The notes beneath the pieces were generated by a model. The model worked only from the letters and a program-made list of their open reading frames with translations, was not told the origin of the DNA and did not search any database. Shown piece after piece: positions 2,733-45,070 of a stretch of 64,000 nt of DNA (position 1 is the stretch's first letter; each line of letters starts with the position of its first letter). The stretch is taken from contig NZ_CP023317.1 in the NCBI RefSeq assembly GCF_009497655.1, forward strand, positions 2,075,501-2,139,500, read 5' to 3'. The translations under genes were made by a program, and so were the position numbers. Origin of the DNA: Priestia megaterium (GTDB lineage Bacteria; Bacillota; Bacilli; Bacillales; Bacillaceae_H).

Positions 2733-2880
2733 AAAAAACACTCCGTTTATAAACGGAGTGGCAAATGACAGTACAAAACTGAACATTGCCACTTTCCTAC
2801 GCTGGTATGAGCCAGATCAGGTTCAAAGGGATCAAGAAAACTTGTCTCAGCCGGTCGGCACCCCTAGTGGACTTCCTATT
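2733..2880 (-). promoter_or_regulatory. TPP riboswitch (THI element) with terminator, controls tenA
   Basis: Read on the minus strand, the aptamer (about 2785-2875) carries the conserved GGGGTGCC...GGCTGAGA segment and the CCCTTTGAACCTGATCTGG ... AGCGTAGGAAAGTGG segment of TPP riboswitches. Downstream at 2733-2760 is a terminator with stem CACTCCGTTT / AAACGGAGTG followed by six U. This layout fits transcription attenuation at high TPP. About 50 bases separate the terminator from the TenA start. Confidence 0.95.
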
Positions 2881-17809: not shown

Positions 17810-17950
17810 AACAAGAATAGTATGGGAGCTTGCGCGGGGCAGGCTGAGAGTACAGGGGCGCCTGTTGACCATTTGAACCTGTTGGATAATGCCAGCGCAG
17901 GGAATGTGAGTACATACCAAAGCACTTTGCGCATGCAAGGTGCTTTTTTG
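17810..17950 (+). promoter_or_regulatory. TPP riboswitch with terminator, controls thiM-thiE
   Basis: The aptamer spans about 17823-17910: GGGGCAGGCTGAGAG followed by TTGAACCTGTTGGATAATGCC and AGCGCAGGGAA, the conserved THI box. Its terminator is AAGCACTTTGC / GCAAGGTGCTT with a T6 run (17919-17948). The element faces thiM, so high TPP should end transcription before the kinase. Confidence 0.96.
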
Positions 17951-20033: not shown

Positions 20034-20214
20034 ATAAAAAAAGCTAGCTACAGCTAACTAAAAAATAAGCCCGCACTGCCGTAACCCTAAGTGTCTTAAA
20101 TACCCAGATCTACTAGGTGGGTGCCCTCATAGCCGGGTTTAGCGTCCCAAGAAGGGCGTGCTATCTGCAGCTAAATTTTGAGCTCCCTTTTAACACTCAA
20201 AGGTTTAAGACAAC
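20034..20214 (-). ncRNA. Probable 6S RNA (RNA polymerase regulator)
   Basis: On the minus strand a -10 element TATACT (20218-20223) is followed by a GC-richer, highly self-complementary region of about 180 bases. It ends in a terminator (stem AGTTAGC / GCTAGCT, then T7). The arms pair end to end: AAACCTTTGAGTGTT near the 5' end with GACACTTAGGGTTA near the 3' end, giving a long rod with a central bubble. The bubble side carries CACCCACCTAGT, resembling the product-RNA template region of B. subtilis 6S-1. No coding frame fits. A covariance-model search was not possible. Confidence 0.6.
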
Positions 20215-20350
20215 ATGAGTATACGCACAGCGCAGGTATGTATAACAAATGTAAATAAAATGCCGATATATAAATGTTTTCTAATTAATCAACTTTCATC
20301 GTACAAGAAATGATTATAACGGAATAATGAATGGAACGCAAGACTTTTAT

Positions 20351-34931: not shown

Positions 34932-35009
34932 TTGATGCATCCTTTCTTTCCCAACATTAAAAAGGTATTCCACTTGTCTCCTAAAAAAACCTGCTTTTAT
35001 GTACAAAAA

Positions 35010-35277
35010 GAGGCTGGAATAAAAGGATTTTAGACAAAGTGAAAAACGAACCATTGATCAAGATGTTTGATTCGTGGTTCGTTTTTTTGTTAGGGTAAAC
35101 ATAGGTTTCATGTGTGTAAGTCTTTCTAGCAGTTGATTGGAGGGCAAGGCGAAGACTCCCGCGGAAAGCGAAGCCTTGCACGGAAATCAACTGCCGTGTC
35201 ACAAGCGATCCATAGGAGCTCATGTATCCTATATGTTCGTCTTTAGATTGGATTCATTTCGTCATGTCTCAACCCCT
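35010..35277 (+). repeat. Dispersed intergenic repeat, copy A (short form)
   Basis: First of three related elements (others at 42812-43162, inverted, and 44734-45061). It begins GAGGCTGGA, has a terminator-like hairpin (AACGAACCA / TGGTTCGTT plus T run), then a 64-base core at about 35130-35193 closed by GCAGTTGATT / AATCAACTGC. It ends CGTCATGTCTC at the sqhC stop codon. The core lacks about 67 bases present in the other copies. Confidence 0.85.
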
Positions 35278-37146
35278 TTATGAAGAATGTTTTTTTGCGT
35301 AGTGGGCAAGTGCAAGAAGAGGAAAAATATCATTGTAGCTGTGGTACTGAATATAAAATTGTCCAGGAAGACCAATTCCCGTGGGATAATGAATTTGCTG
35401 TTCTGTAAGATTTGGATTCAGTAAAAATTTAATTCCTTTTTCAACTGCTCGATCTTTTAATGGACATATTGTCATTAAAGCATCGAGAGCCCAAGCCGTT
35501 TGAGAAGGAGTGCTAAACGATAGTGGCACATATTTTTTTAAAGAAGCGCTATAGCATGATTCTCCGAATCCGCCGTCTTCTTGTTGAATGCTTTTGAGCC
35601 AATTGATGGCTTTGATGATACGCGGATCAGAAGCGGAAATTCCTACAGCACGGAGTCCAGTAATAGCGGCCCACGTTCCGTAAATGTAGCAAACACCCCA
35701 CCGGCCGTACCAGCTTCCGTTATCCAATTGATGATCAAACAGCCATTTTACTGCAGCTTTAATCGAAGGGTGGGATTTATTCATACCGGCAAAGTTTCCG
35801 AGGCACTCAAGCACTCGACCGGTTAAATCGGCAGTAGCCGGATCCGTTGCTGCGTCTTTTGCGTTTTCAAGCGGCAGATAAGTAAATAAAATAGAATCGG
35901 TATTTTTTTCAAATGCAGCAAAACCCCCGTCTTTGTTTTGCATGGACAACAGCCAGTTAATGCCCCTTTGCCAAGACTCCAAATAATCTGTATCGGTTTG
36001 CGCTCTTCTAGAAAGAGCTCTAATAGCAGCAGACGTATCGTCTAAGTCAGGGTTATTCGTATTAATATCGGAGAATCCCCAGCCTCCAGGCGCTGTATTT
36101 GGGTTATGAAACTGCCAGTCTCCAAGCTTTGTATGCTGTCTTTTCTTTAAGTAACGAGTTGTGCCTTTAATCATGGGATCTTGCTGCGGTACACCTGCTT
36201 CTTGTAGAGCGTAAGATAGCAGGGCGGTATCCCAAACGGTTGACGTGGAGTTTTCTACGTGCGTGTGACCGCTGCATGTACTAAGTAGTGAACAAATACC
36301 GTCAATTGCTTTTTGAACCACAAACGAATCTTTTTTATAGCCAAGAGCCAAAAGACCGTAAATCATAAAAAAAGTAGAGGTTGCGTAGCTGTAGAGTGTT
36401 CCATCTTTTTCAAGTCTTTCTAGCATGTAACGCTCGGCTGCTTGATAACCAAGCTTGTGGATGTAAGAAGGTAAAGAAGCCAGCTGTTTTAAATGGTCGA
36501 CTAAAAAAATAGAAGCGCGTGATTCTTGAGCAGCTTCATCCGCTTCCTGTTTCTGCTCTCTTACATCTAAATGAGAAAGAGAAGGTGTATGCCTAGAAGT
36601 AAGTGAAAATTTTTTGTTTCCAGCTACCATCATCGGGACGAAGTGAATTCTGGCATAGGTGCTTAGTTCATAAAAGTTAAGCGGTACATAGGTAGGCACG
36701 AGCAAAAGAGAAAGCGGGAGGTAAAATAGCTTTGGCCACTCGTATAAGCCGTTAACACAAAGCATCCATCTTGTGAGAAAATGAGCGCGAGAAATGCCTC
36801 CTGAATCTATAATATATCTTTCTGCTTTTCGCAAAATCCGGTCATTTTTTTGGTAATAGCCTGAATATAAAAGAGCTGTATAAGCTTGAATAGTAGCGGA
36901 TAAGTTGTGTTCTTCATCATCAAACAACGTCCAAAGACCATCTTCATTTTGAAGGGAAACGATCCGTTCGGTTAATTGTTTAATCAACACTTCTTTATCT
37001 AAATCAAAGGTGCGAAGAAGCATAATTAAAAACGCATCAGGCATAACGCCTGTTTCAAAACAGTAGCGAAATGACCCGTCATTTTTTTGTGTTGGGCGCA
37101 GATAGGCGATTCTTCGCTGAATCTCTAGCTGAACTTCCTTTAGCAA
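35278..37146 (-). CDS. sqhC: Squalene-hopene/tetraprenyl-curcumene-type terpene cyclase
   Basis: A 622-residue class II triterpene/sesquarterpene cyclase. The protonating motif is NPDLDDTSAAIRAL (DxDDT, about residue 363). QW repeats are visible, for example DGSWYGRWGVCYIYGTW, QNKDGGFAAF and QEDGGFGESCYS. TTG 37146 is chosen, six bases after AGAGGTG; a GTG at 37155 lies inside that site. B. megaterium has a cyclase of this type (BmeTC) that acts on squalene and tetraprenyl-beta-curcumene to give onoceroid/hopanoid-like products; the match in size and genus suggests the same here. No squalene synthase is adjacent. Membrane-peripheral location is expected. Confidence 0.93.
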   Translation of the reverse strand: MLKEVQLEIQRRIAYLRPTQKNDGSFRYCFETGVMPDAFLIMLLRTFDLDKEVLIKQLTERIVSLQNEDGLWTLFDDEEHNLSATIQAYTALLYSGYYQKNDRILRKAERYIIDSGGISRAHFLTRWMLCVNGLYEWPKLFYLPLSLLLVPTYVPLNFYELSTYARIHFVPMMVAGNKKFSLTSRHTPSLSHLDVREQKQEADEAAQESRASIFLVDHLKQLASLPSYIHKLGYQAAERYMLERLEKDGTLYSYATSTFFMIYGLLALGYKKDSFVVQKAIDGICSLLSTCSGHTHVENSTSTVWDTALLSYALQEAGVPQQDPMIKGTTRYLKKRQHTKLGDWQFHNPNTAPGGWGFSDINTNNPDLDDTSAAIRALSRRAQTDTDYLESWQRGINWLLSMQNKDGGFAAFEKNTDSILFTYLPLENAKDAATDPATADLTGRVLECLGNFAGMNKSHPSIKAAVKWLFDHQLDNGSWYGRWGVCYIYGTWAAITGLRAVGISASDPRIIKAINWLKSIQQEDGGFGESCYSASLKKYVPLSFSTPSQTAWALDALMTICPLKDRAVEKGIKFLLNPNLTEQQIHYPTGIGLPGQFYIQYHSYNDIFPLLALAHYAKKHSS

Positions 37147-37297
37147 TATGATCACCTCTTATGATAATGCTTTTCAATCTTTCGACCTGTTTCTTTATAA
37201 CTGTATTCAAAGGAAGAGCGTTCTATGAGAGGAGAAAGTTGCAAAGAATAGAGCGCTTGCTGCACAATAAAGGTACTGGAAAATTGGAGTGATAGAA

Positions 37298-38338
37298 GTG
37301 AAAGAAATACAGGTAGAAGTTATTCAAGGGCGAGGCTCTTACCGAGAGCTTGGTAAAATGCAAGGGGAATCACATAAAGGAACAAAGCTGTTTGAAAATC
37401 ATCAAAAAAGAAGAAAACGTTCATTACGAAGCTATCAAACGATAGCAAAAGAAGCTCGTCATTATTACGACTTATTTGCTCCCGGACTGTGGGACGAGCT
37501 ATTGGGCTTAGCAGAAGGCTTAGATTGGCCTCTTGAAGACGTCATACATGAGTACAGCGGGTATCAGCAAGAGTGGAAGAAAACGGGATGTTCTGCTCTT
37601 ATGCAGCACGGTGTGTATGTGCGGAATTACGATTATCATCCGAAAACGTACGAAGGTCGATTTTTGCTTTTTCAGCCAAATGAAGGATATGCAAGCGTCG
37701 GGTTTGGAACAAGAATGATTGGGCGAATGGATGGAATGAACGAAAAAGGATTAGCAATTGGCTATCATTTTGTTAATCGCCGCCGTCAAACGAACGGATT
37801 TATTTGCTGTACGCTTGCTCGGTTTATTTTAGAAACATGTGAAACGACAGAAGAGGCTGTTGCTATTTTAGAAAGGGCACCGCACCGTCATGCGTTTAAT
37901 TATTCCATTTACGACCGCAGCGGACAGGGAGCAGTAGTCGAAGCATCTGGACGAGGCGTTCATGTACAAAGAGGAACGATGATGGGGTGTACGAACCATT
38001 TTAATCAGCTGGTCGAAGAAAATCGTCATCATTTGGTAGAGTCAAAGGAAAGGCTCGATCATATTCGAGATCATATTGAAAAAAAGCTATCGCCTCTTGA
38101 AGCTTTTTCTTTATTTAATGAAGGTGAATACGGTATTTTTAAAGAAGATTACCGGAATTCTGCTGGAACGCTTCATACAGTGGCATATGTACCGGAGACG
38201 CTGCAAGTCATTGTGGGAATTGGACGAAAAGCAAAACCTCTTATTTTCTCGTTTGAGGATTGGGTGAAAGGAGAACAATTAACTATAACGAAAATAAAAG
38301 GAACGGTAAATACAGACGAACCATTTCCGTTTCAGTAA
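37298..38338 (+). CDS. C45-type NTN hydrolase / acyl-CoA:6-APA acyltransferase family protein
   Basis: A 346-residue protein starting at GTG 37298, eight bases after GGAG; GTG 37289 is too close. The sequence matches the AAT/peptidase C45 family: RELGKMQGESHKG near the N-terminus, then KTGCSALMQHGVYVRNYDYH, where Cys after Gly is the expected autocatalytic N-terminal nucleophile (about residue 103). RMDGMNEKGLAIGYHFVNRR and ALNT-like MGCTNHF follow. These enzymes cleave or transfer acyl groups on amides; most bacterial substrates are unknown. It is divergent from sqhC and is followed 11 bases later by nnr. Confidence 0.87.
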   Translation: MKEIQVEVIQGRGSYRELGKMQGESHKGTKLFENHQKRRKRSLRSYQTIAKEARHYYDLFAPGLWDELLGLAEGLDWPLEDVIHEYSGYQQEWKKTGCSALMQHGVYVRNYDYHPKTYEGRFLLFQPNEGYASVGFGTRMIGRMDGMNEKGLAIGYHFVNRRRQTNGFICCTLARFILETCETTEEAVAILERAPHRHAFNYSIYDRSGQGAVVEASGRGVHVQRGTMMGCTNHFNQLVEENRHHLVESKERLDHIRDHIEKKLSPLEAFSLFNEGEYGIFKEDYRNSAGTLHTVAYVPETLQVIVGIGRKAKPLIFSFEDWVKGEQLTITKIKGTVNTDEPFPFQ

Positions 38339-38349
38339 GGAGCAGCATA

Positions 38350-39852
38350 ATGAGAATTGTAACGAATCAAGAGATGTATCAAGTAGATGATTATATGACG
38401 AATACAATTGGGATGAGTGAAGAGTCCCTTATGGAAAATGCCGGACAGGCTGCTGCAAACGCGCTGAGTGAGCGAATCGAAAAATATGAAAAAATAGGGC
38501 TGCTTATAGGAACGGGAAACAACGGAGGAGACGGCTTTGTTATTGCCCGTGCTTTGAAGTCAAAAGGCTATGAAGTTGACGTCTGGGTAGTTCCTGCACG
38601 GGAGAAAATAAAAGGCGCAGCTAAAAAAGCCATGATCATCTATGAAAATGCTGAATTCGCGTGGCAATCGGCGGGAGACAACTTCTCTGTAAAAAAGTAT
38701 ACGGTCCTTATTGATTGTTTATTAGGTATAGGCGTAAAAGGCAGCATCAAATCTCCTTATGATAACATTATAAAAAAAATAAACGACTCTAAGGCTTACA
38801 TATACAGCATCGATGTCCCAAGTGGAGTAATGGAACAGAAGCAAGAGCTTACGGTACGTGCAGATGCTACGATTACGCTTCAGCAGCCAAAGATCACGGC
38901 ATTTACATACCCGAGCAAAGAAAGCTATGGTGAATTGATTGTAGTAGATATCGGTATCCCACCGCTAGCAATTGGAAAAAGCTCATCCCTTAAAGAGGTA
39001 TGGTCAACTCAGCATATTAAACAATCTTTTCCCATTCGGAATGCTTCGTCCAATAAAGGTACACATGGAAAAGGAATCGTAATAGGAGGTTCACTTCAAA
39101 CACCCGGAGCGCCGATGCTAACGTCAAAAGCAGCACTCACAAGCGGAGCAGGGCTCTTAACGCTTGCGCTTCCGAATGATATTCATGCGATTGCAGCTGC
39201 TCACATGTTAGAAGTGATGTATAAGCCATGCCCAAGCAAAGATGGCTTTTTTGCAGGCGAGATTCCTTTAGAAGAAGCAAAGTACGATGCAATTGCAGTT
39301 GGACCAGGGCTTGGGAGAACGGAAGAAACAAAGAAAGTTGTCGAACAAGTACTTCAACAGCCCGTTTCTGTTGTAATCGACGCAGATGCTCTTTTTCATC
39401 TGCCGGATTTGATGAAAGAAGTAAAAGAAAGAGAACACGCAACGATTTTAACACCTCATCCCGGAGAAATGGCTAGACTCGTGGATACAACAATCGCAGA
39501 AGTAGAAGCAAATCGATTTTCGATATCTAGCCAATACGCAGTGGAAAATGGTGTGTATCTTGTATTAAAAGGCCCAAACACGATCGTTACAACGCCGGAT
39601 GGAAAACAATACGTAAATACCACTGGAAACGCAGGACTTGCAAAAGGTGGAACGGGTGACACGTTAACCGGAATCATCCTCGCTTTTATTATGCAGCATG
39701 ATTCTCTTCAAGAAGCAATCAGCAATGCGGTATATGTTCATGGAAAAGCAGCGGATGTGCTGCTCGATCAGGGGCATACAATGATAGATATGTTAGCAAG
39801 TGACGTTATTTCTGCACTTCCGGCAGTCTTCGGGCAGCTGAATGAGAAGTGA
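38350..39852 (+). CDS. nnr: Bifunctional NAD(P)HX epimerase / ADP-dependent NAD(P)HX dehydratase
   Basis: A 500-residue fusion that repairs hydrated NAD(P)H. Residues 1-215 are the YjeF-N epimerase domain: QEMYQVDDYM, LMENAGQAAANAL, GTGNNGGDGFVIARAL and SIDVPSGV. Residues about 220-500 are the ribokinase-like dehydratase: GKGIVIGGSLQTPGAPMLTS, AVGPGLGRTEETK, VIDADALF, LTPHPGEMARL and AGLAKGGTGDTLTGIILAF. ATG 38350 has AAGGAG; the longer frame to 38260 overlaps the previous gene. The fused form is normal in many bacteria. It is cotranscribed with the C45 gene. It adds to the window's several cofactor-maintenance genes. Confidence 0.96.
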   Translation: MRIVTNQEMYQVDDYMTNTIGMSEESLMENAGQAAANALSERIEKYEKIGLLIGTGNNGGDGFVIARALKSKGYEVDVWVVPAREKIKGAAKKAMIIYENAEFAWQSAGDNFSVKKYTVLIDCLLGIGVKGSIKSPYDNIIKKINDSKAYIYSIDVPSGVMEQKQELTVRADATITLQQPKITAFTYPSKESYGELIVVDIGIPPLAIGKSSSLKEVWSTQHIKQSFPIRNASSNKGTHGKGIVIGGSLQTPGAPMLTSKAALTSGAGLLTLALPNDIHAIAAAHMLEVMYKPCPSKDGFFAGEIPLEEAKYDAIAVGPGLGRTEETKKVVEQVLQQPVSVVIDADALFHLPDLMKEVKEREHATILTPHPGEMARLVDTTIAEVEANRFSISSQYAVENGVYLVLKGPNTIVTTPDGKQYVNTTGNAGLAKGGTGDTLTGIILAFIMQHDSLQEAISNAVYVHGKAADVLLDQGHTMIDMLASDVISALPAVFGQLNEK

Positions 39853-39965
39853 TTTCTTCTGGATTATTAAAATTTGTTGACAAAATCCTTCAAAAAGTTG
39901 TCAAAACTCTGTGTAAATGATAACGTTATTTTACGTAAGATTTTACATAGAAAGAAAGTGATGTT

Positions 39966-40244
39966 GTGTACTACTCAATGAGACCAAGAGGCATTCATTT
40001 AGCTGTGCCTACACTTTTCTTCCTTATTACAGTCGTGTTATTTGCGATGATGCAGTTTGGTTTTTATTTGGATTCCAGCATTCTTCGTAAAATTTGGGTC
40101 ATCATTATGGCTTTATTGCCCATTGCTGGACTAATCACGGCTATTAAAGGTAGAAGAGGAAGCGCAAAGCCGTGGTTAATTATAGGAAACGTGATTCTTA
40201 TTTTAACCGTTACAATAATGAGCGTACAGGCTATTATTTATTAA
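39966..40244 (+). CDS. Small three-helix membrane protein, unknown
   Basis: A 92-residue protein from GTG 39966, with only a weak Shine-Dalgarno (AAAGTGAT). It has three hydrophobic segments: LAVPTLFFLITVVLFAMMQF, IWVIIMALLPIAGLITAI, and WLIIGNVILILTVTIMSVQA. The last two are separated by a short basic loop, KGRRGSAKP. The pattern recalls YczE/DUF-type small Bacillus membrane proteins, but no family is assigned. Upstream is TTGACA near 39875 and a cre-like TGATAACGTTATTT near 39917. It ends at a strong terminator. Confidence 0.65.
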   Translation: MYYSMRPRGIHLAVPTLFFLITVVLFAMMQFGFYLDSSILRKIWVIIMALLPIAGLITAIKGRRGSAKPWLIIGNVILILTVTIMSVQAIIY

Positions 40245-40246
40245 AC

Positions 40247-40285
40247 AAAAAAACGTGTTCGCCAAACAGGCGGACACGTTTTTAT
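40247..40285 (+). terminator. Bidirectional rho-independent terminator
   Basis: Stem AAACGTGTTCGCC / GGCGGACACGTTT (one wobble) with A and T runs, between convergent genes. Confidence 0.9.
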
Positions 40286-40311
40286 TAGGAAGAAGAAAAG
40301 AGCTGTTTCGC

Positions 40312-40968
40312 TTATTCTTGCATCGCGGCATTTATTCCTTCTTTTCTAACTTCTAGCATATGAGTAGCTTTTTTATCAATACCTTTAGCTGTATCGGAAG
40401 AAATGACGCCTACGCTGCTTAAGTCATAGGCAAGACTTGTAACAAGCAGCTGCTCTCTTTGTGCGAGTGTGCCGTATGTAAGTGCAGCAGTTTTAGCTTG
40501 AATGCCACTCATATTTAATTCATCAGTAGAAGAAGCTGCTTCTTTTTTTGCGGCTATTGCTTCTTGATAAAGAGAATCATATCCTCCAAACCCTACTTGG
40601 GCAATTAGAAAGTTATAAATGTCATCGGCCGATTTTTTCGAAGGCTGAGAAAAAGCTCTTTGAAATTTATTGCGCGGTAAAAAGTTTAGTGCCGTCTGTC
40701 TTCCGTCTTCATAAATTTTTTCTTGTATTTCTTTAGTAGCTTTTTCGTCATTTTTTTTCTGTGCTGCATCTAGCTGTTTGCGATATTTTTGAATAATGAC
40801 TCCGTCCTGCTGATTGTTTCCCTCTTTGAAAGTAGCTGCGGCTTGTGGAACATCTGACGTTGCTAGCGTCTCAGCGGCGTTCTCTGAAGAAGAAAAGACC
40901 GTATTTTTGACAAAAATAAGTGCAAAGATCAGCAAAATAAACCATAAAAACCTAAATTTCTTAAACAA
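40312..40968 (-). CDS. Membrane-anchored or secreted protein of unknown function
   Basis: A 218-residue protein from TTG 40968, six bases after AGAGGTG; the GTG inside that site is less likely. Residues 1-24 are a signal peptide or anchor (FLWFILLIFALIFVKNTVF) without a lipobox. The exported part is polar, with Lys/Glu-rich helices (YRKQLDAAQKKNDEKATKEI) and an Ala-rich C-terminal half (LYQEAIAAKKEAASS, SGIQAKTAALTYG). No catalytic motif or family was recognised. It is monocistronic. Confidence 0.75.
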   Translation of the reverse strand: MFKKFRFLWFILLIFALIFVKNTVFSSSENAAETLATSDVPQAAATFKEGNNQQDGVIIQKYRKQLDAAQKKNDEKATKEIQEKIYEDGRQTALNFLPRNKFQRAFSQPSKKSADDIYNFLIAQVGFGGYDSLYQEAIAAKKEAASSTDELNMSGIQAKTAALTYGTLAQREQLLVTSLAYDLSSVGVISSDTAKGIDKKATHMLEVRKEGINAAMQE

Positions 40969-41140
40969 AACGTTCACCTCTGTATAATATTTCTAATTAT
41001 GTAAAACAACATCGATCAGTATACAACAATTTTAGTGTCTTTTTACACATTTACCTAAAAATAAGAAAATAGTAAGAGGTGGTTTTATTAATCTAATAGA
41101 TATATAAGTTTATTGTTATAGTTCTAAAGAAACCATTGAT

Positions 41141-41914
41141 CTATTTGTACTGATTTACATAGTCGAATATGTTTTTGCTAATAAGGCTTAAAGTGACAAG
41201 AATAAAAAGCGTTCGGACGTACGTCACGCCTTTTGATAAAGCGACGTTTGATCCAACGAAAGAACCCACGATCATCGCAAACCCCATAATTAATCCGTAA
41301 GAAAATACAACAGAATCAAAATACAGAAATACAAGCAAAGCACCTAAATTACTGCCGAAATTTAAAAATTTTGCGCTGCCTGCTGACTGCAGGAAATCAA
41401 ATCCCATAAATAAAAAAGCAAATAAAATAAATGAACCTGTGCCTGCTCCTAAAAATCCATCGTAAAAGCCAATAATAAAAATAAGTGCAGTAAAGAAAAT
41501 AAGTTTCTTAATAGACAGCGGCTTATACGTGGACGTGGTGCCCCAGTTTTTTTTGAAGATTGTATAAATAGCAACTAAAACAAGGAGAATCAAAATAACA
41601 GGTTTCAAAAAAGCAGAGGATAGAAAATGAACGGTGATTGAACCTCCCAAAGAGCCAATAAATACAAAAGGAAACCATTTACCCACAACGCGAAAATCGA
41701 CTTTTCCGGATTTGACAAATCGAATGGTACTCGTTAATACGCCCATCGTTCCAGCTAATTTATTTGTAGCTAAGGCAGCAGCGGGCGGCAGGCCTAAAAA
41801 TAAAAGAGCGGGTGTAGAAATTAAACCGCCTCCGCCCACTACGGAGTCAATGAATGCAGCTAAAAAACCAAAGAGTAAAAGCAAAAGAACAATCTGTAAA
41901 CTTAATTCTTCCAT
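41141..41914 (-). CDS. TSUP (TauE/SafE) family sulfite/sulfur-anion exporter
   Basis: A 257-residue protein with about eight helices. The TSUP signature is visible in both halves: GFLAAFIDSVVGGGGLISTP near the N-terminus and FIIGFYDGFLGAGTGSFILF near residue 150. LATNKLAGTMGVLTSTIRF is also typical. AGGAAGGTG precedes ATG. Family members move sulfite, sulfoacetate or related anions; the substrate is unassigned. A TrmB-type regulator gene diverges from it, and the 126-base spacer holds a palindrome that could control both. Confidence 0.9.
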   Translation of the reverse strand: MEELSLQIVLLLLLFGFLAAFIDSVVGGGGLISTPALLFLGLPPAAALATNKLAGTMGVLTSTIRFVKSGKVDFRVVGKWFPFVFIGSLGGSITVHFLSSAFLKPVILILLVLVAIYTIFKKNWGTTSTYKPLSIKKLIFFTALIFIIGFYDGFLGAGTGSFILFAFLFMGFDFLQSAGSAKFLNFGSNLGALLVFLYFDSVVFSYGLIMGFAMIVGSFVGSNVALSKGVTYVRTLFILVTLSLISKNIFDYVNQYK

Positions 41915-41943
41915 AAAGCACCTTCCTCATGTCATAATATATA

Positions 41944-41971
41944 TATAGTGACTACTTAAATAGTAACTATA
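41944..41971 (+). promoter_or_regulatory. Palindromic operator between TSUP exporter and TrmB-type regulator
   Basis: TATAGTGACTA (41944-41954), a 6-base spacer, then TAGTAACTATA (41961-41971), an inverted repeat with one mismatch. It lies in the middle of the divergent promoter region. Confidence 0.65.
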
Positions 41972-42040
41972 TAAAAAGCAGTTGTAAATATGTAAATGAT
42001 GAAAATTTCAAATAACTTAAAAAACAGGGAGGTTTCCTTT

Positions 42041-42808
42041 ATGGAAAATATTATTCAGCAGCTGCAGTCGCTTGGATTTAATCAGTATGAATCAAAAGTA
42101 TACGTGACGCTTGTCAAAAAAGGATCTTCCACTGCTTATAGCATTAGTAAACATTCAGGTGTGCCAAGAGCGCGTGTATACGATATTTTACAAACACTAG
42201 AGGAAAAAGGCATGGTGTTAAAAGAAGAGAGTAATGATGGCACCCAGTACACGTCGCTGCCCGTCGATGCTTTTTTGCATTCGCTGCAGAAAAAATGGAA
42301 CGAAACGTATGAAGACGTTAGCGAAACGCTTAAACGTCTTGAAGCTGCAGAGTCTATAGAAGAAAGCCGGGTTATGACGATGAGAGGAGAAACAGCCATT
42401 CTTGCTTTTTGTGAGTCGCTATTGTTAAAAGCAAAAAATAAAATTGTCATCTCGCTTTGGCCTGATATTTATAATGAGTTGAAGCTTCTTTTATTACAGC
42501 TAAGGGAGAGTGTCACACTAAAAGGAATTGTGTTTGAACAAGATGAAGCGATGGAGGAATTTGACCGGCACCGCCATACAAGCTATACCGAAAATATTGG
42601 GAATCAAAACTGGTTTATTATATCTGTTGACAGCAGTGAAATGATTTATGGTCATAAAGAAATGGCTTACTATACCAATAACGGAGTTAACATTAATTTA
42701 CTTGAAAACTATATTTGGCATGATATCCTCGTTAACAGACTTGTAGAAAAAAGTGATCGAGAAATGGACAGGTGGATCGAAAGGGAAAGAGAAAGCTTTT
42801 TTGCGTAG
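42041..42808 (+). CDS. TrmB-family transcriptional regulator
   Basis: A 255-residue protein. ATG 42041 follows GGGAGG; the frame upstream to 41996 is unsupported. Residues 1-75 carry the TrmB winged helix: LQSLGFNQYESKVYVTLVKK, then KHSGVPRARVYDILQTLEEK. A coiled-coil stretch (about 85-115) precedes a C-terminal phospholipase D-like sensor part containing KNKIVISLWPDIYNELK. This matches the TrmB type of B. subtilis (for example YrhO). Divergence from the TSUP gene and the intervening palindrome suggest that it regulates the exporter. The effector is unknown. Confidence 0.9.
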   Translation: MENIIQQLQSLGFNQYESKVYVTLVKKGSSTAYSISKHSGVPRARVYDILQTLEEKGMVLKEESNDGTQYTSLPVDAFLHSLQKKWNETYEDVSETLKRLEAAESIEESRVMTMRGETAILAFCESLLLKAKNKIVISLWPDIYNELKLLLLQLRESVTLKGIVFEQDEAMEEFDRHRHTSYTENIGNQNWFIISVDSSEMIYGHKEMAYYTNNGVNINLLENYIWHDILVNRLVEKSDREMDRWIERERESFFA

Positions 42809-42811
42809 AAA

Positions 42812-43162
42812 AGAGACTTAGACATAACGAAATCACTTCCATCGAAAGACGAACAAACGGGATAAATGATCTAGTATGAATGGCTTGTTACATCGCAGTT
42901 AATTTCCGTGCAAGGCTTCGCTTTCCGCGGGCGGACGATGAGCCTCCTCGTCGCTTACGCGCCTGTGGGTTCTCATCTGTTCCGCTTTTCCCGCAGGAGT
43001 CTTCGCCTTGCCCTCCAATTAACTGCTGGAAGCAGCCACCATGCATGAAAGCTACGTTCACTTTACCAACAGAAAAATCCGAACAAAGTTGATGCTCCAT
43101 TAAGAGTCTCAAGTCCTCGTTCGGATCTTCCTTCAATCAAAATATTTTTGTTACAGCCTCTT
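42812..43162 (-). repeat. Dispersed intergenic repeat, copy B (long form, inverted)
   Basis: Reverse-orientation copy of the element at 35010 and 44734. On the minus strand it starts GAGGCTGTAACAAAA, has a terminator-like ATCCGAAC / GTTCGGAT hairpin, and a core of about 127 bases closed by GCAGTTAATT / AATTAACTGC (42895-43027). It includes the middle module with GCGTAAGCGACGAGGAGGCT found in copy C but not A. It fills the whole spacer between the TrmB-type gene and the convergent azoreductase gene. Confidence 0.87.
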
Positions 43163-43166
43163 TATA

Positions 43167-43793
43167 TTAAAAAGTTTGGGCAAGTTTTTTTGCTTCAGCT
43201 ATTCCTTTTTCTTTAATTTCTTGGGCTTTATCTGGCATTGCATTATGCCCTTCCACAAAAATGCCGTCTAACGAAGGTACTCCGAAGAAATTCATCATAA
43301 TTCCAATATAGCGATGCCCCATTTCCATATCAGCTGCAGGACCTTCAGAATAAATGCCTCCGCGTGCTTGAATATGAAGCGCTTTTTTATCTGTTAATAG
43401 TCCAACCGGACCTTCGGCCGTGTATTTAAATGACTTACCCGCTACGGCTACAGAGTCTAAATAAGCTTTCATAACCGGTGGAAACGAAAAGTTCCACATA
43501 GGCGTTACAAAAACATATTTGTCCGCTCCTACAAACTGTTCGCTCAATTCTGCAAGGCGATTGACCTTTTCCTGTTCATGAGAAGAGAGTTCCGAGCCAG
43601 ACTGAAGTTTGCCCCAGCCGCTAAATACATCTGCATCAATATGAGGGATATTTTCTTTATAAAGGTCAATATGTACAACTTCGTCACTTGAATTGTGCTC
43701 TTTGTAAGCATCGATAAATGCTTTTCCAGTTGCCATACTGAATGATTGAGACTCATCGTGAGGATGAGCTGTAATATAAAGTACTTTTGCCAC
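43167..43793 (-). CDS. azoR: FMN-dependent NADH-azoreductase
   Basis: A 208-residue flavodoxin-fold quinone/azo reductase, starting at GTG 43793 after AAAGAGATG. FMN-binding segments are visible: [20 protein letters not shown] (residues 7-26), [20 protein letters not shown] and [12 protein letters not shown]. The length is typical of AzoR (about 200-211). These enzymes reduce quinones and azo dyes using two electrons from NADH and are often induced by thiol-reactive electrophiles. It is monocistronic, with repeat copy B directly downstream. Confidence 0.94.
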
Positions 43794-43991
43794 GTTTTAT
43801 CATCTCTTTCTTGTTTGAAATAATGTACTGTCTTATCGTTATCACTCCCATAAAAAACTATACGCGCTTTGTCAGGTAAGCTAAAAAAGAGCGTAAGAAA
43901 GGGACGTCTATATAGAAAATAATGGTATAATGAATGTTTGAATATTTACATAACAAGTATGTGTAACAGAAAGTAGATAAGAGGTGTAGAG

Positions 43992-44711
43992 ATGAAAGAA
44001 AAATGGGTAATCGTCACGGGTGCAGGTGCTGGAATTGGCAAAGAAATTGTAAAAGAGTGTGTGTTGAAGTGCTATTCAGTTATTGCTTGTGATAGTAATG
44101 AAGGAGCTTTGAAACAGCTAGCTGAAGATACGAAAGGTCATATTGAAACGTATGTAATAGATGTTAAAGAAGGGAAGGGCGTAAGAAATCTTTTCTATCA
44201 AATAAAAGATAAAAATTTATATGGATTAGTTAATAATGCAGGCGTGTATTTAGGGAAAAATTTATTGGATTATGAAGAAAAGGAAATAGATTTTGTGATG
44301 GACATTAATATTAAAGGATATATTTATTTCTCCAAATACTTTGGCGAATTATTAATGGAAAAGGAAACAGAAGGAGCAATTATTAATATATCGTCCGTAT
44401 CAGGAATGGAAGGAAGCTCCGATGCTATATATGGAATGTCTAAAGCAGCGATATTAGGATTAACCAAAAGCTGTGCAATGAATTTTTCTCCTTATATCCG
44501 TGTGAATGCCGTAGCACCTACAATGGTAAATACCGATATGATGAAAAATATTCCAGAGTGGCGCAAAAATGAATACATCGATCATCAGCTGATTCCAAGC
44601 TTTGTTACGACTCAAGACGTGGCAGATACCGTTCTTTTTTTACTGAGTCCTCAAGCAAAACATTATACAGGAGCTACCTTTGATTTAAATAGCGGATGTT
44701 ATTTACGATAA
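43992..44711 (+). CDS. Short-chain dehydrogenase/reductase
   Basis: A 239-residue classical SDR. The cofactor motif is TGAGAGIGKEIV (residues 9-20), followed by NNAGVYLG, the active-site Ser in NISSVSGMEG, and the catalytic YGMSKAAILGLTKS (Tyr/Lys, about 152-156). Asp at the end of strand 2 (IACDSNEG) suggests NAD(H) preference. AAGAGGTGTAGAG precedes ATG, and a TATAAT lies about 65 bases upstream. The substrate is not identifiable. It is monocistronic and is followed by repeat copy C. Confidence 0.92.
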   Translation: MKEKWVIVTGAGAGIGKEIVKECVLKCYSVIACDSNEGALKQLAEDTKGHIETYVIDVKEGKGVRNLFYQIKDKNLYGLVNNAGVYLGKNLLDYEEKEIDFVMDINIKGYIYFSKYFGELLMEKETEGAIINISSVSGMEGSSDAIYGMSKAAILGLTKSCAMNFSPYIRVNAVAPTMVNTDMMKNIPEWRKNEYIDHQLIPSFVTTQDVADTVLFLLSPQAKHYTGATFDLNSGCYLR

Positions 44712-44733
44712 ATTATCTTTTAAACGAGTAATC

Positions 44734-45061
44734 GAGGCTGGACAAAAATATTTTAGTTAAGGATAAATTCGAATAATCAATCGGTATTATTGACTGACCA
44801 TTCGGATTTTTTACTGTTATTATAAACGTTGGTTTCACCGCTTCTAGCTGTTGATTGGAGGGCAAGGTAGAAGACTCCTGCGGGAAAAGCGGAACAGATG
44901 AGACCCCACAGGCGCGTAAGCGACGAGGAGGCTCATCGGCCGGCCGCGGAAAGCGAAGTCTTGCACGGAAATCAACAGAGGTGTCAAGAGCAATCCATAT
45001 GAGTTTATTAATCCAATTTGCTCGTCTTTAGATTGGGTTAATTCCGTTATGTCCCATCCTC
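44734..45061 (+). repeat. Dispersed intergenic repeat, copy C (long form)
   Basis: Begins GAGGCTGGACAAAAATATTTT, as copy B does on its strand. The core at about 44848-44978 is closed by CTGTTGATT / AATCAACAG and contains GGAGGGCAAGG, GAAGACTCC, the middle module GCGTAAGCGACGAGGAGGCT, and GCGGAAAGCGAAG. It ends with TCGTCTTTAGATTGG and CGTTATGTC, shared with copy A. No coding frame is conserved between copies. Confidence 0.87.
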
Positions 45062-45070
45062 CTTTTTGTT

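Follow-up and report, generated by a model that had tools for sequence, protein, structure and literature searches.

A stretch of 64,000 nucleotides of the Priestia megaterium genome (NZ_CP023317.1; C1:2075501-2139500 of the 5.24-Mb genome G000), termed the window here, contains three copies, A, B and C, of an intergenic repeat. These are very probably miniature, non-autonomous mobile elements of the IS1182/IS1272 kind, which would insert by replacing hairpins and be mobilised by a transposase acting in trans. Replacement of this type is already known from staphylococcal insertion sequences; the miniature form, present in many copies and carrying a terminator and a conserved core, is new. An initial reading of the letters of the window (the sequence-only reading) had placed the three copies within a few bases of the limits given in Table 1 and correctly noted that A lacks a middle module, of about 66 bases rather than the 67 then counted. 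The family extends far beyond these copies: a 33-base core pattern, allowing up to three mismatches, matches G000 at 78 places (41 on the forward strand, 37 on the reverse), with no match on either strand to the reversed control pattern, and a DNA search of the genome with copy C returned at least 40 matches. When all 78 copies are read in one common orientation, 62 have both ends (no more than four mismatches in 15 bases, at the expected distance).

Evidence of mobility comes from orthologous sites in four relatives of the same genus, G001 (P. aryabhattai), G003, G006 and G008; coding segments of the five genomes differ pairwise by 4.2-7.3%. At site A, seen in three of these, G003 (L472) has a simple hairpin, AAAGGAACAGC..GCTGTTCCTTTTT, and G008 (L465) and G006 (L474) carry an element in the opposite orientation. 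At site B, the element is present in G006, and G001, G003 and G008 instead have an A-run, CCCGCRTAAAGCGGG and TTTTT. Site C is occupied in the same orientation in G006 and G008, and by an opposite-orientation element in G001 and G003. This was extended to a random 21 of the 44 eligible sites in G000, eligibility requiring proximity to a stop codon, for which 84 orthologous places were found in the four relatives: 24 hold an element with a core in the same orientation, one an inverted element, 17 a core-less or shortened element and 38 a simple hairpin, the other four consisting of one deletion and three places with a different downstream region. At 19 of the 21 sites at least one relative has a simple hairpin. 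In these counts, script labels were changed by eye to simple hairpin at 736847 (G003, G008) and 3323592 (G003), and to shortened element at 3323592 in G001. For a reverse sample, 20 copies were fetched from G001, of which nine were usable and were read by eye; a simple hairpin was found at all nine sites in at least one of G000, G003, G006 and G008 (14 of 36 cells), and at eight of them the element stands in that hairpin's place.

The simple hairpins differ among sites, are unlike the element and are often common to several species at one site, on which grounds they appear to be the older state, and the direction of exchange is likely to have been from simple hairpin to element. The converse, in which the element came first and its loss left the simple hairpins behind, might be favoured by the existence of core-less remnants. 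The smallest, at C1:3519558 of G000, consists of nothing but the two element ends, forming a hairpin of 42 bases in which a changed outer base is matched on the other side. Such loss may hold for single loci of this sort; at most sites it is contradicted by the variation, dissimilarity and cross-species sharing of the simple hairpins, and as a general account it is hardly credible.

The junctions are also informative about how the exchange took place. Target duplication, for which the sequence-only reading had proposed a check at empty sites in related strains, is not in excess in the 62 complete-ended copies (observed mean 1.61, permuted 1.98; the 16 of 78 without both clear ends were excluded), as would follow from an element that replaces a hairpin rather than duplicating its target. 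At 17 of the 19 sites with a simple hairpin, using one relative each, chosen by hand, the number of old-stem bases surviving to the left of the element correlates closely with the number surviving to its right (r = 0.958, a value not attained in 10,000 permutations; mean difference 0.7, against 3.9 permuted). Some of this symmetry is to be expected, as the A-run and T-run that remain are mirror images. The junctions lie at opposed positions of the lost stem: at 687215 both cuts fall at the base of the stem, some old-stem bases (a few) are left beside the element at 3323592, and at 1893043 the hairpin has been lost along with its A- and T-runs, the element there having neither. An exchange of terminators by recombination or template switching at the A-run and T-run, with no transposase involved, would be consistent with the occurrence of both runs at most junctions, the palindromic nature of the replaced unit and the lack of target duplication. 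Such an exchange is difficult to reconcile with 1893043, where the runs went with the hairpin, with the nearly constant GAGG/CCTC ends, equal to those of IS1182 elements, or with the lack of evident sequence in common between the element and the simple hairpins read; we therefore consider it improbable.

Hairpin replacement by a mobile element also appears to have occurred more than once at the same place. The elements of opposite orientation are 77% alike at site A and 80% alike at site C; their inner hairpins differ, and elements at different sites are on average 82% alike. Being no closer than pairs from different sites, these elements look like separate entries into one terminator, and different copies probably arrived at each site independently. 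The opposite-orientation pair at 834629, 91% alike, could represent an inversion or a close copy. Among pairs at the same site and in the same orientation, the likeness of 12 of 36 does not exceed that of 95% of different-site pairs, so that separate entries may account for some of these as well.

The family's terminal inverted repeats, GAGGCTGGGACAAAA and TTATGTCYCARCCTC (in short form GAGGCTGGGACA / TGTCCCAGCCTC), usually bordered by an A-run and a T-run, connect it to the IS1182 family. A BLAST search of plasmids with 48 bases of left end and hairpin (E limit 10) returned 75 records, many from Lactobacillales, most of the listed matches being weak taken alone. Nine of these loci were read: both ends are present in Enterococcus faecium, L. 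salivarius, Lysinibacillus, L. reuteri, Sutcliffiella and Carnobacterium, most of these six enclosing another hairpin, and the Niallia and Pediococcus loci have the left end alone and that of Latilactobacillus a diverged hairpin. In the L. reuteri LL7 plasmid (NZ_CP041677.1, L503:1033-2742), a 570-amino-acid open reading frame (ORF) between GAGGCTGGGAAAAAACTA and TAGTTTTTTCCCAGCCTC is an IS1182-family transposase (NCBIfam NF033551, E 9e-102; DDE domains), and the frame formed by these ends also holds an inner AAAACCGAACCA..TGGTTCGGTTTT hairpin. The plasmid IS1182 elements of Mesobacillus foraminis (left end AAAAGAGACTGGGACAAAA, right end GTTATGTCCCAGCCTCTTTTT) and Terribacillus (AAAAAGAGAGCGGGACAAAA / AGTTATGTCCCGCTCTCTTTTT) show the same asymmetry of ends as the Priestia element, GGGACAAAA on the left and GTTATGTCCC on the right; the Priestia consensus equals the M. 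foraminis ends at 14 of 15 bases on the left and 14 of 16 on the right.

No IS1182 transposase lies inside the element, the complete-ended copies of which span only 205-350 bases; they are too short for such a gene, so they could at most be a non-autonomous derivative. The repeat is short, lacks a transposase gene, has terminal inverted repeats, is present in many copies and is mobile, as is characteristic of Miniature Inverted-repeat Transposable Elements (MITEs). From these comparisons of sequence we conclude that it is likely to be a non-autonomous IS1182-type element, and an IS1182 transposase would then act on it in trans in this lineage.

Some features of the plasmid loci are recorded in their own right. 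The L. reuteri transposase ORF is missing from the distributed gene table, and the M. foraminis IS1182 transposase (L505, NZ_CP033045.1) matches in three pieces and looks broken. In Pediococcus damnosus pL21532-4 (L427, ~701-777) a left end of the GGGGCTGGGACA type is closely followed by an annotated ISL3-family transposase, an arrangement that looks like an ISL3 insertion into a frame of this kind. In L. salivarius UCC118 pMP118 (L425, ~701-870) the next feature directly after a tetracycline-resistance gene is a GAGGCTGGGA..TTCCAGCCTC element enclosing a hairpin.

Read from left to right, the element begins with an A-run, GAGGCTGGGACAAAAGTA and a hairpin with a T-run behind it; a link then leads to CTTCTAGCAGTTGATTGGAGGGCAAG, the folded core and AATCAACTGCGG, and a second link to CGTTATGTCYCARCCTC and another T-run. 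Complete-ended copies are mainly 301-350 bases long (48 of the 62), with 13 of 248-286 bases and one of 205. The inner hairpin is highly variable in sequence yet mostly paired, with 66 distinct arms among the 68 copies that have a recognisable left end; at least eight net pairs and a T-run of at least four are found in 59 of these, and 37 copies have an A-run of at least four on the opposite side as well. The nine exceptions comprise six with a short T-run, C among them, and three with too few pairs; the hairpin of A is not one of the nine. A search with the left end found 90 sites in G000, and a set of 30 that are outside the core list, when read by eye, comprised 23 without a core and seven with parts of one. 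Most of the 30 are ~80-175 bases long and have retained the inner hairpin, and in a few the right end is not clear.

Table 1. Positions in the window of the three copies and their parts (MFE, minimum free energy; z, z-score)
Feature	Position	Strand	Sequence or remarks
Copy A, short class	35010-35276	+	core shorter by about 66 bases; antisense to both adjoining genes
Copy A, inner terminator-like hairpin	35041-35088	+	GAAAAACGAACCA..TGGTTCGTTTTTTT; from sequence
Copy A, core with closing stem	35129-35194	+	fold of 35126-35198: MFE -30.0, z -3.55
Copy A, closing arms	35129-35138 / 35185-35194	+	GCAGTTGATT / AATCAACTGC
Copy B, full class	42813-43160	-	between two convergent genes
Copy B, core with closing stem	42895-43026	-	GCAGTTAATT/AATTAACTGC; fold of 42896-43030: MFE -55.2, z -4.42
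Copy B, closing arms	43017-43026 / 42895-42904	-	
Copy B, inner terminator-like hairpin (approximate limits)	43071-43128	-	from sequence and alignment
Copy C, full class	44734-45061	+	begins 22 bases past the stop of gene 43992-44711
Copy C, left terminal inverted repeat	44734-44748	+	IS1182-type left end
Copy C, inner hairpin (approximate limits)	44766-44812	+	T-run criterion failed
Copy C, core with closing stem	44848-44978	+	CTGTTGATT/AATCAACAG; fold of 44842-44982: MFE -48.4, z -2.27
Copy C, closing arms	44848-44856 / 44970-44978	+	
Copy C, right terminal inverted repeat	45047-45061	+	IS1182-type right end

The longest open stretches inside A, B and C are 81, 82 and 98 codons, and small mechanical ORFs run across the elements; one element in a plasmid gene table is annotated with a hypothetical protein. 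A search of the whole window against Rfam at the gathering score gave three matches, none of them on A, B or C, and relaxing the limit to E values up to 10 on A and C gave sub-gathering matches only, none convincing. The three matches are a 6S RNA (20064-20241, reverse strand) and two TPP riboswitches (2777-2875, reverse strand, and 17812-17920, forward strand). Across ten genomes of the genus, the core pattern is matched 78, 76, 38, 62 and 133 times in five. Copies are also present in 16 plasmid records, seven of them from Priestia and including P. megaterium plasmids; the phage records searched gave no match.

Most copies are found at the ends of genes, a placement which, like the terminal inverted repeats and the flanking A- and T-runs, the sequence-only reading had not remarked on. 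With gene context taken from a simple ORF caller, a sense ORF lies to the left of 73 of the 78 copies at a median gap of 8 bases past its end, and the start of 58 copies falls in the interval from 5 bases ahead of a sense ORF's end to 25 bases past it. Between two genes on the same strand, 40 copies are in the genes' sense and two, including A, are opposite; a further 33 lie between convergent genes, the end of the right gene being a median of 5 bases away, and three are in divergent context. Assuming an origin at the start of C1 and a terminus opposite, 63 of the 78 copies are co-oriented with replication, comprising 36 of the 40 sense tandem copies and 23 of the 33 in convergent context (23 to 10, p 0.035).

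This orientation bias, together with the folded extragenic core and a weak Y1_Tnp match in many core-rich genomes of other genera, might suggest a repetitive extragenic palindromic (REP)-like element that a Y1 (RAYT) transposase mobilises through its single-stranded hairpins. The corresponding domain, PF01797, is absent from G000, G001, G003 and G006, which have 78, 76, 38 and 62 core matches, and none was found in the core-rich genomes G155 (83 sites) and G222 (66). None of nine Y1 loci in five core-rich genomes has a core signature within 1.5 kb, and the ends of the element are IS1182 ends, making Y1-mediated movement highly unlikely. The 'mobile REP/MITE-like unit' of the sequence-only reading can thus be retained as regards MITEs, on the basis of the occupied and empty sites, the inverted repeats and the IS1182 family, and is not supported as regards REP, in view of the four genomes of the genus without a Y1 transposase and the nine Y1 loci without a nearby core.

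The core is the most conserved part of the element, with a mean column identity of 92% over the 57 of 78 cores that were aligned, along with 44 of 78 full copies. In its closing stem 97.9% of cells are paired, dropping to 31-43% once one arm is slid by 1-3 columns, and ten pairs have changed on both sides; cells changed on both sides number 45, against 10.1 in shuffles, and none of 500 shuffles reaches that value. The outermost pair is AU in 31 copies, UA in 13, GC in four and unpaired in nine, and one inner pair is GC in 27, AU in 17 and GU in 12. The earlier proposal that each change in one arm is matched in the other is accordingly true of A, B and C and untrue of the family as a whole, in view of the nine unpaired outermost positions in 57; compensatory change is real both between copies and between genera. 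The closing arms have been rewritten across genera, for example to TGAAGCAAAAAGGAC with GTCCTTTTTGCTTCA in Domibacillus. As RNAalifold did not recover the closing stem from a 34-sequence cross-genus alignment, a failure we attribute to misaligned arms, the pairing of arms was tested directly with 84 distinct arm pairs, 72 of them from outside Priestia. In 4852 of 5442 comparisons an arm pairs more stably with its own partner than with an arm from a dissimilar member; the own partner ranks first among all partners in 24 of 84 cases and in the top three in 36, first ranks being few because an arm type is common to many members.

Such a covarying fold, with own arms favoured to this extent, and the 40 of 42 tandem-context copies in the genes' sense are what could be expected of a structured RNA module of 3′ untranslated regions (UTRs), inherited with the gene, regulating termination or stability, and not mobile. 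As a full account this is refuted by presence and absence at orthologous sites between species as close as those compared, and by opposite orientations at one site; the core has moreover been lost or shortened in 17 of the 84 cells in relatives, with the inner hairpin mostly kept, and the ends match an insertion sequence. We regard such a module as an unlikely explanation. The sequence-only reading, which had offered a '3′ UTR RNA module' as its second option, was right about the place, since the copies lie in 3′ UTRs and most have a terminator-like hairpin, and wrong about the origin, these being mobile elements.

Outside Priestia, a 16-base core signature (up to one mismatch) is present in 167 of 299 Bacillales genomes, from a single match in some to 211 sites, with a distribution that is patchy even inside one genus; the reversed control gave none in most genomes and at most five, with about 18 genomes having any, by reading. 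In G177, which belongs to another family, a model of the core has at least 150 matches; 28 of 30 fetched loci have a sense ORF on the left, several of the 12 loci read have a separate simple hairpin with a T-run behind the core, and the core consensus shows no IS1182 frame. Core matches in this genome are also often paired, one strong and one weak on opposite strands (on C1, e.g. 1761422-1761772 and 970499-970850, where the two are about 75 bases apart), as if the core had undergone an inverted duplication in that genus. Of 50 loci from other named genera, a sense ORF lies to the left of 38, and the bias in tandem context is weaker (21 versus 7). In Bacillus suaedae (L300) the core lies within the same frame, in reversed orientation relative to Priestia. 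Cores in Peribacillus saganii, Bacillus sp. CECT 9360 and M6-12 (L304, L330, L344, L302, L341) have longer common flanks, ..AAAAGCC ahead and AACAGACCCCATTAACAGGCCAAATAAAAAAA behind, with variation, which suggests a different outer frame in that clade.

Core and frame are separable, given the cores of G177 without an IS1182 frame and the reversed orientation in B. suaedae, and the core may itself be another mobile element or an RNA. It is possible, though we hold this tentatively and think it somewhat less probable than its contrary, that the core represents a structured element in its own right, mobile or regulatory, dispersed in Bacillales and captured by the IS1182 miniature element in Priestia-type genomes. 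If so, the composite would rewrite terminators genome-wide and provide dozens of genes with a conserved RNA domain in their 3′ UTRs. The passenger core is a covarying structure with a signature in more than half of the sampled genomes.

Several observations weigh against hairpin replacement by an IS1182-type miniature element as an account of the whole family. A tblastn search of the fetched loci of G000 and the genus, a small part of these genomes and not a whole-genome search, gave no IS1182 hit at E 1e-3, and none of the IS1182 plasmid matches listed is from Priestia. In the genus, the other five of the ten genomes lack any match to the core pattern. Nine of the 68 left-ended copies fail the terminator criterion, the sites sampled in G000 were by design close to stop codons, and the symmetry of the cuts is in part a consequence of the mirrored runs. 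At the ninth site sampled from G001 (C25:55203) an intact simple terminator has been kept, with the element just downstream along with extra bases; replacement is therefore not universal.

The mechanism envisaged is one in which an IS1182-family DDE transposase, supplied in trans, would recognise the inverted-repeat ends, and the target would be a folded hairpin, usually an intrinsic terminator just past a stop codon. Both arms would be cut at opposed positions and the stem-loop discarded, the element taking its place with no target duplication. The replacement is seen by comparison of genomes; the reaction itself is modelled on that proposed for IS1272 and TnSha1. The inner hairpin is predicted to terminate transcription and, with the A-run, stem and T-run frame of the ends, would be expected to let the 3′ end of the host gene terminate still; since most copies bring a terminator-like hairpin, termination is probably preserved. 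Insertion may hence be nearly harmless, which would explain the tens of copies per genome, their position and their orientation, and neutrality could likewise account for the copy number. Lying between the hairpin and the right end, the folded core would be a passenger, often deleted in place. As the invader brings its own terminator-like hairpin, the elements suggest how numerous genes could have their terminators replaced with no visible harm. So far, the case for hairpin-replacing transposition has rested on a limited set of insertions in staphylococci; related Bacillales species of one group provide dozens of before-and-after pairs, through which target choice, cut position and orientation become answerable by comparison.

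No description of this Priestia repeat was found in the open-licence literature searched. The EFAR repeats of enterococci (De Gregorio 2009, FEMS Microbiol Lett 292:7) are reported to be small, modular and variable in length, and to integrate into unrelated stem-loops, most of the stem-loop being lost. In this reported behaviour they resemble the Priestia elements; EFAR is not known to contain a core of the Priestia type. A hairpin of ~50 bases on an E. faecium plasmid is built of the same kind of ends.

The bcr1-bcr18 families of the Bacillus cereus group are small interspersed repeats with mobile features, bcr1 reaching up to 130 copies (PMC6542083), and resemble the Priestia element, likewise from the Bacillaceae, in description. 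The Firmicutes families Bhal-1, Sta-1 and Efa-1 are likewise similar in description, being intergenic and possessing a conserved stem-loop (PMC2267715). REP and BIME sequences associated with RAYT are extragenic folded repeats like those of Priestia (PMC3733652), which differ in that four carriers in the genus have no Y1 transposase and the elements have IS1182 ends instead. The closest known systems are IS1272 and TnSha1/TnSha2, IS1182-family elements of staphylococci. Their targets are hairpins of no preferred sequence, of which several are confirmed terminators (PMC4923244, PMC5678879); some non-hairpin targets are also reported (PMC5678879). In IS1272 and TnSha1, part of the stem-loop is lost bluntly with no target duplication, and a single terminator can be entered repeatedly and in both orientations (PMC4923244, PMC5678879). 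The Priestia elements likewise replace hairpins without target duplication and in both orientations. By contrast, IS1272 and the TnSha elements carry a transposase gene, which the Priestia elements lack, and are present at one to ~15 per genome, whereas the latter are ~80-350 bases long, mostly contain a terminator-like hairpin and often a core, and reach 38 to 133 core matches in each of five genomes.

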